From Echinicola sp. 20G (GTDB lineage: Bacteria; Bacteroidota; Bacteroidia; Cytophagales; Cyclobacteriaceae), in contig NZ_AP024154.1 of NCBI RefSeq assembly GCF_015533855.1, positions 1,181,001-1,245,000 of the forward strand: a stretch of DNA of 64,000 bases, given 5' to 3'. The notes under the pieces are model-generated. The model ran no database searches and was not told the DNA's origin. It saw nothing but the letters and a program-made list of their open reading frames with translations. The translations under genes were made by a program, and so were the position numbers. Shown piece by piece: positions 12,300 through 24,919 of this stretch (the stretch's first letter is position 1; each line of letters starts with the position of its first letter).

Positions 12300-13685
12300 C
12301 TACTTAGAAAGTTGTTTAAACTCTTTAAAGAACTGCACAATGGTTTCAATGCCCAAGAAGTAGTTCTTCACCCCATAATGTTCATTTGGAGAATGGATCG
12401 CATCGGTATCCAAGCCAAAACCTAACAATATTGGGTCAAGCCCTAACTCTTCCTGGAATAGTGAAGTAATCGGAACAGATCCACCTTCTCGGGTCGGGAT
12501 TGCTTGCTTACCAAACACAGCAGAAACAGCCGCTTCAGCCGCTTTGTATCCCACTGATGATGTAGGAACTACAGCTGGCTTACCTCCATGATGAGGAGTG
12601 ACTTTCACTTTTACCGAGTCAGGAGCCAAAGATTCAAAATGCTTTTGGAACAATTCTGAAATCTCGTGATGATTTTGATGGGGAACCAATCTCATTGAAA
12701 TTTTAGCATAAGCTTTTGATGGAAGCACTGTTTTGGCTCCTTCACCTATATAGCCTCCCCAAATACCATTTACATCCAAGGTAGGCCTGATCCCAGTGCG
12801 CTCCAAAGTGGTAAATCCAGCTTCTCCCTCTACTGACTTAATATCCAGTTTACGCTTATAATCATCTAGGTCAAAAGGGGCTTCATTGAGTTTCTTCCTG
12901 TACTCAGCTGAAAGTTCTTCCACCTTATCATAAAAACCAGGAATAGTAATTTTTCTGTCCTCATCCTGTAGTTGGGCAATCATCTTACACAGGATATTAA
13001 TAGGATTGGCGACTGCGCCACCATAGGTCCCACTGTGTAGGTCACGATTAGGACCGGTCACCTCCACTTGCATATATGCCAGTCCTCTCAGACCAACAGT
13101 TACAGAAGGTGTATCCAGCGAAATCATGCTGGTATCAGAAATAAGAACCACATCGGCCTTTAACTTTTCCTTATTGGCTTTGATAAAGTTCTCTAGGTTA
13201 TCTGATCCGACTTCCTCTTCCCCTTCTATCATAAACTTCACATTACAGGCCAATTCCCCTTCAGCCATCATGGCTTCAAAGGCTTTGACATGCATGTAAA
13301 ACTGCCCTTTATCATCCGCTGATCCACGAGCAAAAATAGCCCCTTCAGGGTGCATTTCCGTCTTTTTAATTACCGGTTCAAAAGGAGCAGAATCCCAAAG
13401 TTCATATGGGTCAGCAGGCTGTACATCATAATGTCCATACACCAAAATGGTAGGCAAAGAAGCATCAATGATCTTTTCTCCATACACCACTGGGTAGCCT
13501 GGGGTTTGACAAATCTCTACTTGATCAGCACCGGCTTCCACCAAGCGCTCTTTCACATAATCAGCCGCCTTGAACACCTCTTCTTTGAATTTCGGGTCTG
13601 CACTGACAGATGGTATTCTGAGTAGGTCCAAAAGCTCATTGAGAAACTTTTCCTGATTTTGCTGGATATAATCTTTCGATGCCAT
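12300..13685 (-). CDS. M20-family dipeptidase
   Basis: A 461-residue cytosolic metallopeptidase of the M20 (ArgE/DapE/CNDP-like) family, cleaving dipeptides with a di-zinc centre. Visible motifs are YGHYDVQPADPYELW (H and D ligand region, about 85-100), ARGSADDKGQF (bridging Asp, about 118-128), IEGEEEVGS (catalytic Glu, about 152-160) and the C-terminal DAIHSPNEHYG. The dimerisation lid domain sits between about 205 and 320. The length is typical of the CNDP-like group. No signal peptide is seen. A TAnnTTTG-type element lies at 13718-13725. Confidence 0.93.
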   Translation of the reverse strand: MASKDYIQQNQEKFLNELLDLLRIPSVSADPKFKEEVFKAADYVKERLVEAGADQVEICQTPGYPVVYGEKIIDASLPTILVYGHYDVQPADPYELWDSAPFEPVIKKTEMHPEGAIFARGSADDKGQFYMHVKAFEAMMAEGELACNVKFMIEGEEEVGSDNLENFIKANKEKLKADVVLISDTSMISLDTPSVTVGLRGLAYMQVEVTGPNRDLHSGTYGGAVANPINILCKMIAQLQDEDRKITIPGFYDKVEELSAEYRKKLNEAPFDLDDYKRKLDIKSVEGEAGFTTLERTGIRPTLDVNGIWGGYIGEGAKTVLPSKAYAKISMRLVPHQNHHEISELFQKHFESLAPDSVKVKVTPHHGGKPAVVPTSSVGYKAAEAAVSAVFGKQAIPTREGGSVPITSLFQEELGLDPILLGFGLDTDAIHSPNEHYGVKNYFLGIETIVQFFKEFKQLSK

Positions 13686-21373: not shown

Positions 21374-24340
21374 TCAAGCCAATTTTTTGGCCTCTTCTTT
21401 CTCTTGTTCGATTTCTTTCTTCATCAAATCCACTACGATAGGTGTAGCGATATAAATGGATGAATAAGTACCAATCAACACACCAATAAACAAGGCAAAA
21501 GAGAAACCTCTCAATACCTCGCCACCAAAGATTAGCAATACAATCACCACAATCAAAGTAGTGAATGAAGTAATCAAGGTTCTGGCCATCGTTTGGTTGA
21601 TAGCATCATTGAACATTTTCACCAATTTAGAAGTCCCTCTATTGGTCACATTCTCCCTGATACGGTCAAATACAATTACGGTATCGTTAATAGAGTAACC
21701 TATCACCGTCAATACCGCCGCTATAAATACTTGGTCGATTTCGAATGTTGCGCCAAATGCACTGGCAATCGCAAATGCCGCCACTACAAACAAAGTATCG
21801 TGGATCAATGCAATGATAGATGCCAATGAATATTGCCACTTACGGAACCTCAATAAGATGTAAAGGAAAATCGCCACCAAAGCAAAGAACATCGCTTCCA
21901 TAGATGAATTCTTGATATCATCAGCTACGGTAGCTCCTACTTTAGAAGAACCAGTGATCGCAAATGAACTGTCACTCAATTGAGTGGCATCATCTACATA
22001 AGCCAGTCCAGTTACTTCTGCAATACCTTCTCTAACTTTAGTTTCCACTTCGCTATTGGCTTCATCGGAATCTTCGTTGATCAAGTAAGAAGTTGTTACT
22101 TTAATGACATTATTGGATCCGTATGTTTTGGCTTCTACAGAACCATCAAAGGCTTTATCCAAACCAGTTTTCAAGTCAGAAGGAACCACAGGCTGGTTGA
22201 ATTCAACAATGTATGAGCGACCTCCAGTAAAGTCAACACCGAATTTCAAGCCATTGATTGCAGCAAATGCCAAACCTACAATGATAATCCCTGAAGAGAT
22301 CAAGTAAGCTACTTTTCTCTTGCCTAGGAAATCAATGTTAAGGTTGCTGAATAAGTTCTTAGAGAATGGCGTAGCAAAAGAAATTTTGCTTTGTTCACCT
22401 TTCTTGCTCAACCAATACACAATTACTCTTGTGATAAATACCGCTGAGAAGAATGAAGAAGCAATACCAATCATCAATACAATTGCAAAACCTTTTACAG
22501 GTCCCTGACCCAATGCATATAGAATGGCTCCAGTTAGGAATGTAGTAACGTTGGAGTCAAGGATGGCACTGAATGCTTTGTTATAACCACTGTTGATAGC
22601 TTGTAACAAACCAGCACCGGCAGCCAACTCTTCTTTGATCCTTTCAAAGATCAATACGTTTGCATCAATGGACATACCAATGGTCAATACGATACCTGCA
22701 ATACCTGGTAAAGTAAGTGCGGTACCCAATTGCGCCAAGATCCCCAAGATAAAGAAGATGTTGAAGATCAATGCTGCAGTAGCCACAAAACCACCTTTGG
22801 CATAGTAAGCGATCATAAACAATACTACAATCGCCAAACCAGCAACCATAGAGTTAACACCTTGTGCCTGAGCCTCTTTACCCAAAGTTGGGCCGATAAT
22901 GGCTTCTTCTACAATTTTGGTCGGAGCAGGAAGTGTACCTGATTTCAAGATATTTGCCAAATCTTTGGCTTCTTCCATGGTAAAGTTACCCGTAATCTCT
23001 GATTGACCATTTGGAATCTCACCAATAATATTAGGAGCAGTATACACATAGTTGTCCAATACTACGGCGATTCTTCTTCCGATATTCTCAGAAGTCATTT
23101 TTCTCCATTTTCTGGCACCATCAGCATTCATGCTCATGCTCACAGCAGGGTTAGAAGACTGATCCAACACTTGCTTGGCATCGGTGATCACATCACCTTC
23201 CAATGGAGCTTGATCTGTTCCTCTTGGTGTTTCGATTGCATGAAGTTCAAGTAGTTCAAGATCGTCTGCTTCACGAGGCTTCACTGACCACATAAAGGTC
23301 AGATCTCTTGGGATCAAAGATTTGATATCATCTCTCTTAAGAATTCTATTGATGGCAATCGTATCTTTTACTTCATATACTAAACCATAATTGGCTTTCA
23401 ATAGAGAGAATAAAGGAGACACCTCAGAAGAAAGAGAGTCAGCACCCTCTCCACCATCTGCCAATTGACGCTCTAGGTCAGTCAAAGTAGAATCAGCTTC
23501 CACCACTTCACCTTCTTCGGTTGTAGTTTCCACAGTTCCTTTTTTCGCTCTTGCTTCAGCTACTAAGGCTGAGTTGATACTCTGCAATACACCTTGGTAT
23601 TCGTTGATCTCAGCAACTCTCCAGAATTGTAGCTTAGCGACTCCTTGCAATAAATTTCTTACACGCTCTTGGTTATCCACACCTGGCAATTCAATCTGGA
23701 TTCTACCAGTACCTTGAATACGTTGGATATTAGGCTGGGAAGTACCAAAACGGTCAATACGAGTTCTTAGGATATTGAAAGAACGCTCGATGGCATTTTC
23801 AATTTCATTATCGATGATCTCAAGAATTTCACTATCAGAAGACTCTAGAGAGATTCTTCCTCTATTGGCAGCAGTAGCATAAATGGTGTTCAACTGCTTG
23901 TCACCTGATTTGTCTTTCCAAGAAGTGTAAAACAAGTCCACAAACTTTTCATTGGAAGTTTTGGATTGCTCTTCAGCTTCTTCCACAGCTGCATTGAATG
24001 CTTCATTTTGGCTGTTTCCTGCCAAACCTTTCACAATCTCCACTGGCGAAACGGCCAATGTCACGTGCATACCACCTTGAAGGTCTAGACCTAATCCTAG
24101 TTCAGTTTCCTTAACTTCTTTGAATGTATATTCTAGGCCAAGGAAGTTATAAACAGGCTCTCTCCAGATGGAGTCGAGGTATGATTGTTTTTTGGCATAA
24201 TCTAAATTGCCACTTCCATCTGTTGCATAGGCAACTGCGTCCTTTTGGACATTACTTGATACGTAGGTAAATGACAGATAATACAAGCATAAAGCCGTAA
24301 CCACCACTGTCAAGAACACAATGATCCCTTTGTTTTGCAT
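21374..24340 (-). CDS. secDF: Protein translocase SecDF fusion
   Basis: A 988-residue fused SecD-SecF, the usual state in Bacteroidota. TM1 (about 5-25) is followed by the SecD periplasmic domain P1 with LGLGLDLQGGMHVTL and RTRIDRFGTSQPNI. The first RND-like membrane block carries LTIGMSIDANVLIFERIKEE. Then comes SecF with KFGVDFTGGRSYIV and a second block with TVIGYSINDTVIVFDRIREN, and a Lys/Glu-rich cytosolic tail. It uses the proton gradient to pull exported chains from SecYEG. A long unique insert (about 255-330, Glu/Thr-rich) sits in P1, as in other Bacteroidota. A small secreted ORF precedes it by 92 bases. Confidence 0.96.
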   Translation of the reverse strand: MQNKGIIVFLTVVVTALCLYYLSFTYVSSNVQKDAVAYATDGSGNLDYAKKQSYLDSIWREPVYNFLGLEYTFKEVKETELGLGLDLQGGMHVTLAVSPVEIVKGLAGNSQNEAFNAAVEEAEEQSKTSNEKFVDLFYTSWKDKSGDKQLNTIYATAANRGRISLESSDSEILEIIDNEIENAIERSFNILRTRIDRFGTSQPNIQRIQGTGRIQIELPGVDNQERVRNLLQGVAKLQFWRVAEINEYQGVLQSINSALVAEARAKKGTVETTTEEGEVVEADSTLTDLERQLADGGEGADSLSSEVSPLFSLLKANYGLVYEVKDTIAINRILKRDDIKSLIPRDLTFMWSVKPREADDLELLELHAIETPRGTDQAPLEGDVITDAKQVLDQSSNPAVSMSMNADGARKWRKMTSENIGRRIAVVLDNYVYTAPNIIGEIPNGQSEITGNFTMEEAKDLANILKSGTLPAPTKIVEEAIIGPTLGKEAQAQGVNSMVAGLAIVVLFMIAYYAKGGFVATAALIFNIFFILGILAQLGTALTLPGIAGIVLTIGMSIDANVLIFERIKEELAAGAGLLQAINSGYNKAFSAILDSNVTTFLTGAILYALGQGPVKGFAIVLMIGIASSFFSAVFITRVIVYWLSKKGEQSKISFATPFSKNLFSNLNIDFLGKRKVAYLISSGIIIVGLAFAAINGLKFGVDFTGGRSYIVEFNQPVVPSDLKTGLDKAFDGSVEAKTYGSNNVIKVTTSYLINEDSDEANSEVETKVREGIAEVTGLAYVDDATQLSDSSFAITGSSKVGATVADDIKNSSMEAMFFALVAIFLYILLRFRKWQYSLASIIALIHDTLFVVAAFAIASAFGATFEIDQVFIAAVLTVIGYSINDTVIVFDRIRENVTNRGTSKLVKMFNDAINQTMARTLITSFTTLIVVIVLLIFGGEVLRGFSFALFIGVLIGTYSSIYIATPIVVDLMKKEIEQEKEEAKKLA

Positions 24341-24388
24341 GGTTTACTTAAATAAATATAATTTGTTGATTGATTACAATTGTAGAAA

Positions 24389-24405
24389 CCTGGCTTTAAG
24401 CCAAG
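24389..24405 (-). promoter_or_regulatory. Hairpin in the secDF leader
   Basis: On the transcribed strand CTTGGC-TTAAA-GCCAGG can form a six-pair stem with one G-U, 28 bases after the stop of the upstream small ORF and 49 bases before the secDF start. It has no T run, so it is not a terminator. It could be a regulatory fold acted on by a stalled ribosome; this is inferred. Confidence 0.35.
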
Positions 24406-24432
24406 CTGGAGATGATAGAAAAGTGGAATTAA

Positions 24433-24804
24433 TTACGGTGCATTTGGAGCTATGATCCGCTCCAAGAGAACTTCTAAAAAATGACTTGGATATTTGGCCA
24501 TTGAGGCCTGTGGTCTGACGATTTGCTCCTCAAAACCCACAATTTCATAAATCAATTGCATGGTGTTTTCTGCCACCAAGCTAGCAAAAGGGACCACTAC
24601 CGCATCAGTAGCTACATCCAAAAAAGTCTGATGATCCTGATCTTGATCATCATTATGATCGTGAACTTGCTCGGTCAAGTCACAATCATCATCTTGCAGG
24701 TTGATAAAAGAATGTGAATTAGAAATCAAAAAGCAGCATAAAGCCACCAAAAGGACTGTCATCCTTTGGTGCAATAAGTTCTGTTGTCTGCTTTTCCTAT
24801 TCAT
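24433..24804 (-). CDS. Small secreted protein upstream of secDF; candidate secretion-monitor leader
   Basis: A 123-residue product from ATG 24804 (a start at 24861 adds an unlikely N-terminus and would lie upstream of the -7 element; ATG 24762 is another option and gives a compact signal peptide). It has a basic n-region, a hydrophobic segment (TVLLVALCCFLIS), an Asp/His-rich stretch (DDDCDLTEQVHDHNDDQDQD), a helical middle, and a tail LEVLLERIIAPNAP ending at the stop. The same-strand secDF begins 92 bases later. Small exported ORFs before sec genes with Pro/Ala-rich C-termini are the architecture of arrest peptides (SecM, VemP, ApdA/ApdP types). Function here is inferred; a plain exported protein is the alternative. 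Confidence 0.6.
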   Translation of the reverse strand: MNRKSRQQNLLHQRMTVLLVALCCFLISNSHSFINLQDDDCDLTEQVHDHNDDQDQDHQTFLDVATDAVVVPFASLVAENTMQLIYEIVGFEEQIVRPQASMAKYPSHFLEVLLERIIAPNAP

Positions 24805-24810
24805 AGAAAG

Positions 24811-24818
24811 CAAATGTA
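24811..24818 (-). promoter_or_regulatory. Candidate -7 element for the small ORF-secDF transcript
   Basis: The minus strand reads TACATTTG, matching TAnnTTTG. It lies seven bases before ATG 24804, implying a very short leader, or a ~40-base leader if ATG 24762 is used. Confidence 0.4.
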
Positions 24819-24919
24819 GGTATTTTTTAAAACAAAAGCATTTTTTTGAAAAAAAATCCACCCTAACACAATAAAAGCTGCACTTCCCTACACATCAAGC
24901 ATTTATATTGAATGCAAAG

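Follow-up and report, generated by a model that had tools for sequence, protein, structure and literature searches.

The closest described system is the arrest-peptide family uDF_NAP-stop, which was defined by Fujiwara et al. 2024 (PMC10987492) on 396 upstream open reading frames (uORFs) from 400 genomes and which occurs mainly in subsets of three Bacteroidota orders. In vitro, peptidyl-tRNA amounted there to 30-50% with E. coli ribosomes and to >50% with B. subtilis ribosomes. The arrest needed the residues at positions -3 and -1 together with the stop codon, and according to the toeprint the A site was occupied by the stop codon. For another family, uDF_RQH_Enterobacterales, the same paper demonstrates that the downstream gene is induced. 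A further family described there, uA_NSP-stop, likewise arrests at the stop codon, ends with proline and belongs to Bacteroidota, but differs in its location before secA and in its occurrence in Sphingobacteriaceae.

In a full-text search of the papers available to the analysis, the name uDF_NAP-stop was found in PMC10987492 alone. Further literature searches, judged by titles and the beginnings of abstracts, brought up no additional work on this family. The accessible parts of PMC12992588, which deals with arrest peptides in Bacteroidota, contain no mention of NAP-stop, and those of the earlier search paper PMC7897499 contain no term with the stems Bacteroid-, Flavobact- or Cytophag-. The kind of system considered here was already published in 2024 (PMC10987492), so that the initial annotation of this locus is outdated in its remark that it knew of no Bacteroidota example.

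Layout of the secDF leader

The window, i.e. the whole stretch of 64,000 nt that was analysed, contains a gene for a fused SecD-SecF protein of 988 aa on the minus strand (21374..24340), which was recognized by the Pfam domains SecD_SecF_C (1.7e-80), SecDF_P1_head and SecD_1st. It lies directly downstream of a uORF of the uDF_NAP-stop type on the same strand (24433..24804), whose homologs are also located before secDF. The 123-residue ORF with a signal segment, an Asp/His-rich middle and the end ERIIAPNAP-stop at a distance of 92 nt from secDF had been described in the initial annotation, and this description was confirmed. The ATG is located at 24804 and ERIIAPNAP-TAA forms the 3' end, while the GTG at 24861, given as the end coordinate in the initial annotation, is the start of the mechanically determined ORF.

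A Pfam search returned no family for the uORF. A hydrophobic segment at about residues 16-28 (24721..24759, minus strand) is located behind a basic n-region and, based on hydropathy, would act as an export signal or a signal anchor. Judged by hydropathy and charge alone, the uORF comprises the N-terminal signal or transmembrane segment of uDF_NAP-stop. The Asp/His-rich middle is poorly conserved among 24 aligned sequences, and the number of Trp residues is 0.

The C-terminal 15 residues FLEVLLERIIAPNAP (24436..24480, minus strand), which stand out in the per-position information content of 121 uORF-bearing loci, probably represent the arrest sequence. The stop codon TAA (24433..24435, minus strand) would then be the A-site codon of the arrested ribosome, corresponding to the stall position shown for uDF_NAP-stop (PMC10987492). 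Within the last codons of the uORF a 7-bp hairpin was observed (24444..24465, minus strand), which would sit inside the arrested ribosome; by eye, a comparable pairing was seen in several, not all, homologs of the genus. The gap itself contains a 9-bp hairpin (24387..24407, minus strand), located 26-46 nt past the uORF stop and showing no clear U-run.

TACATTTG (24811..24818, minus strand), which spans -14 to -7 relative to the ATG, was identified as a -7-like element based on the enrichment of TAnnTTTG, which we take to be the -7 consensus of Bacteroidota. Both this element and the hairpin between the two genes had been pointed out in the initial annotation and were found again. In the genus-level homologs, TAnnTTTG was present at -14 or -13 in 11/11 cases. 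In the 60 nt preceding the uORF it was present at 95/120 loci, compared to 5.9 expected from base shuffles, but in the 60 nt preceding secDF at only 4/120 loci. Therefore, the uORF and secDF appear to be transcribed together from a promoter upstream of the uORF. The mRNA of the uORF would often be nearly leaderless, starting near the promoter element.

Occurrence before secDF in Cytophagales

A search with the uORF protein in 39 genomes (relatives and its own genome) gave a match in 16 of them. L014 and L015 were rejected as homologs, since an E of 0.04-0.05 and no secDF alongside look like chance. The remaining 14 loci, including that of the window, lie just before secDF, and all of them end with [AS]PNAP followed by TAA, TAG or TGA. 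The named relatives returned were three, all belonging to Echinicola, a genus of the Cyclobacteriaceae within Cytophagales, with E. arenosa showing 97% identity. An HGSNAT-like acyltransferase was observed on the other side of the uORF at 5/16 loci (within a flank of ~1.5 kb).

To keep the uORF itself out of the query, SecDF alone was used as query in phylum, order and family samples, and the DNA before secDF was then read. Loci were counted if an ORF on the same strand, 60 codons or longer, ended with [NQKHR][AG]P-stop within 320 nt of secDF. This was the case at 112/121 distinct secDF-anchored loci of Cytophagales. The last three residues of these 112 ORFs were NAP (92), QAP (9), KAP (3), KGP (2), HAP (2) as well as QGP, RAP, HGP and NGP (1 each). 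The same rule yielded 0/58 secDF loci in other orders of the same class, the 58 being those fetched out of 61 genomes of this class, 0/121 in antisense orientation and 2/121 in the region 640-960 nt upstream. Based on this secDF-anchored count and the controls, the presence of the uORF is beyond chance. The initial annotation had anticipated that the position before secDF is kept, and a lack of such conservation, which it had named as evidence against its reading, was not seen.

Nine loci appeared to be misses. Two of them carry the ORF further upstream: at L108 it ends with LSPQAP, comprises 153 codons and is located 920 nt before secDF, while at L236 it ends with VQPNAP, comprises 121 codons and is located 369 nt from secDF. 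Other open frames lie between the NAP-type ORF and secDF at L108, as if inserted. Six of the 7 loci without ORF originate from genomes of 1.1-1.6 Mb (rounded; G342, G363, G031, G037, G338 and G350), and these six represent every genome of that size in the Cytophagales order sample. That the ORF is absent from these small genomes (up to about 1.6 Mb) suggests a loss on genome reduction. The seventh locus, L178, belongs to a genome of ordinary size (G026, 4.2 Mb) and counts against the best explanation given below.

The small-genome loci without ORF are L087, L088, L089, L096, L162 and L169. Two copies of secDF are present in G365 (L098/L159) and in G392 (L214/L236), with a NAP-stop ORF at each copy. 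Among the loci from other orders, L042 and L055 comprise ORFs before secDF with the ends VRAGPVC and VRAGPIA, which resemble the published uDF_RQH_Flavobacteriales.

Across the loci the uORF has a length of 109-146 aa (120 loci), and a basic n-region was found in 117/120. The distance from the hydrophobic segment to the C-terminus was 83-123 residues at 121/121 loci, the last 40 residues being left out of the search, and therefore agrees with the spacer of >30 residues from signal to arrest site that characterizes uDF_NAP-stop.

For arrest peptides of the Sec pathway a patchy occurrence has been described. In the sample of this one order, the uORF is nearly fixed. The near-fixation together with the absence in six small genomes provides a good system for the question why some lineages keep export monitoring.

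Conservation of the C-terminal motif

The motif was determined from 121 uORF-bearing loci out of 130, including the loci of the genus. The information content was >1 bit from -1 to -15, while 0.4-1.0 bits were determined for -16 to -31 and lesser peaks of 1.0-1.5 bits at -32, -37 and -39. This agrees with the expectation in the initial annotation that the last codons are more conserved than the rest, the values upstream of -15 being mostly lower. The positions -1 (4.3 bits) and -2 (4.1 bits) are fixed by the selection rule and their invariance is given by construction. Apart from these, high values were found at -3 (3.4 bits), -6 (3.3 bits), -10 (3.4 bits) and -11 (3.1 bits). The corresponding residues were N at -3 in 102 of the 121 loci, I at -6 in 102, L at -11 in 95 and F or L at -10 in 120. 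The C-terminal proline of N-A-P directly at the stop, a feature of uDF_NAP-stop, is kept among the homologs.

The codons used for Pro, Ala and Asn in the tail differ among the 121 loci, and the stop codon was TAG in 51, TAA in 49 and TGA in 21 cases. Since tail codons and stop codon vary, it is the peptide and not the DNA that is conserved. As judged from this alignment, selection acts on the peptide end adjoining the stop. An arrest tied to one release factor was rejected, as all three stop codons are present.

A pattern search for NAP-stop in the genome resulted in 57 matches, some of which comprise TGG instead of a stop. The matches with a real stop were translated (30 loci returned and 18 further stretches with 19 matches), and the 8 matches that were not fetched all end with TGG. 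Considering length, signal-like start and position together, the uORF before secDF was the only such case among the translated matches. At L124, a stop-to-stop frame of 102 codons with the end TNAP was observed. The second match in the window (13345-13356) was rejected, as it represents a frame of 6 codons within another gene. In the regions before secA and yidC of the Echinicola genome no such ORF was seen.

Proposed regulation of secDF

Altogether, we consider it highly likely that the uORF encodes an arrest peptide of the uDF_NAP-stop type, that its stall is regulated by export and that slow export raises the expression of secDF, for which a link at the transcript level is favoured. Architecture, conservation and the one promoter signature before the uORF were observed in the present analysis and form the basis of this reading. 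From there, we infer that export is sensed, that secDF is induced and that the one is linked to the other. The N-terminal signal would direct the growing peptide to the Sec machinery, where active export would pull on it and release the block. With slow export, the ribosome would remain stalled 92 nt before secDF and secDF expression would increase. As in the tna operon, the stalled ribosome might thereby protect the common transcript against decay or premature termination.

Sec-linked arrest peptides usually act through an mRNA structure that masks the start of the downstream gene. A translational switch of the SecM/VemP type, in which the start of secDF would be masked and the arrested ribosome would unmask it, is nonetheless unlikely for the present loci. 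In its favour, the gaps, folded with the terminal 57 nt of the uORF and 40 nt of secDF, showed a mean of -18.8 kcal/mol compared to -14.0 kcal/mol in shuffles. Moreover, hairpins of -7 kcal/mol or stronger were present in 42/121 gaps, a higher share than the 10% observed upstream of secDF at 58 loci of other orders. Compared to other tandem gaps (23/51), however, these strong hairpins were not more frequent, and 38 of the 42 begin >12 nt past the stop, beyond the stalled ribosome. The start of secDF was more open than in shuffles (0.576 vs 0.497, 121 loci). Removing the part covered by the ribosome, with 57 nt of the uORF end included in the fold, caused no extra opening, the gain being 0.015 compared to 0.010 in shuffles (121 loci, p 0.34). 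For the window's own region as a whole, folding was no better than in shuffles (z -0.33). An intrinsic terminator in the gap was rejected, with a T-rich tail at 9/42 strong hairpins compared to 14/23 in other tandem gaps. As an order-wide rule, the folding and hairpin results weigh against a SecM-type unmasking and an intrinsic attenuator. The gap of L013 contains a palindrome with GCAGG in its arms as well as another stretch resembling it, which may represent a small dispersed repeat.

The tail could also be kept for a finished exported protein, for example as ligand of an envelope protein, instead of for an arrest. A plausibly exported product of fairly constant length and the lesser conservation at -32, -37 and -39 would agree with this, but conservation is strongest in the 15 residues at the stop, and the uORF retains its place before secDF. 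Additionally, uDF_NAP-stop arrests ribosomes in vitro and needs the stop codon for it (PMC10987492), and we regard a role of the tail in a finished protein as very improbable. Hardly probable, too, is a uORF that merely feeds ribosomes to secDF by termination-reinitiation, in which case an arrest would lower secDF. The open start of secDF and the promoter signature seldom found directly before it point in this direction. However, gaps of 57-279 nt across the loci are long for reinitiation, and the sign would be opposite to that of known monitoring substrates.

Returning to the proposed export-regulated stall, an effect at the transcript level is favoured over the opening of a hairpin at the start of secDF and serves as our leading guess. 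In the case of TnaC, a ribosome that has stalled at the stop codon prevents Rho from reaching the transcript (PMC8429421). A route of this type would fit both the stop-codon arrest and the open leader, again as a leading guess only. The more specific proposal for Cytophagales, that export is sensed by the stop-codon arrest of the uORF and relayed to secDF by TnaC-like antitermination or transcript protection and not by start unmasking, is a tentative one, possible rather than probable.

With regard to Rho, the C-over-G skew in the 60 nt before secDF was 0.43 for all uORF loci compared to 0.07 in other orders, and within the family the last 60 nt before secDF showed 0.36 compared to 0.12 for other tandem gaps (p 1.2e-4). 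In the first 60 nt past the uORF stop, the skew did not differ from that of ordinary leaders of the window (p 0.51). A rut-like C spacing past the stop was not enriched (6/26 in the family, 15/52 at other tandem stops), and the maximum C-minus-G count showed no difference (p 0.23). Since the rut-like spacing is not commoner and the skew of the first 60 nt is ordinary, the Rho route finds no direct support in these data.

The bacteria considered here are not known to rely on Shine-Dalgarno sequences. The combination of a stop-codon arrest and an open downstream start bears on how a stalled ribosome can control the next gene without such reliance.

Comparison with known arrest peptides

SecM, VemP and ApdA/ApdP share with the uORF that an exported peptide is encoded before a sec gene and serves as a presumed or shown sensor of export. 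VemP stalls at a sense codon. The same holds true for SecM and ApdA/ApdP, whereas uDF_NAP-stop stalls at the stop codon, i.e. during termination (PMC10987492). They also differ from the uORF locus by a RAGP/RAPP-like C-terminal motif, known from SecM, ApdA, ApdP and RQH, which is absent from the tail ERIIAPNAP-stop, and by a sequestering structure, which was likewise not found. The arrest-peptide reading of the initial annotation is consequently strongly supported with respect to identity, given the conserved tail and position and the arrest of the family in PMC10987492, with the qualification that this family arrests at the stop codon, unlike SecM and ApdA/ApdP. The functional reading given there is very probably right.

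TnaC of E. coli ends with proline like the uORF and blocks release with the stop codon in the A site (PMC8429421), as predicted for the uORF. In contrast, TnaC comprises 24 aa with Trp as sensed molecule and Rho as output (PMC8429421), while the uORF encodes 123 aa, lacks Trp and starts with a hydrophobic segment. If the proposed link applies, the uORF would combine a sec-monitoring peptide with an output of the TnaC type, kept across nearly a whole order.

With uDF_NAP-stop, the uORF shares the small ORF before secDF, the affiliation to Bacteroidota, the export signal, the long spacer and the proline of NAP at the stop. By these sequence features the uORF is a member of this family, and it most likely jams its own ribosome at the stop codon and reports on protein export. 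Compared to the published family, the present sample shows a near-complete coverage of Cytophagales and a conserved tail of 15 residues, a longer motif that may already be contained in the published logos, with several residues accepted at -3 (N, Q, K, H or R) and two at -2 (A or G). The description of uDF_NAP-stop is thereby extended by the coverage of Cytophagales, by the 15-residue motif and the variants it tolerates, by the promoter architecture common to the loci and by evidence that speaks against a sequestering hairpin.
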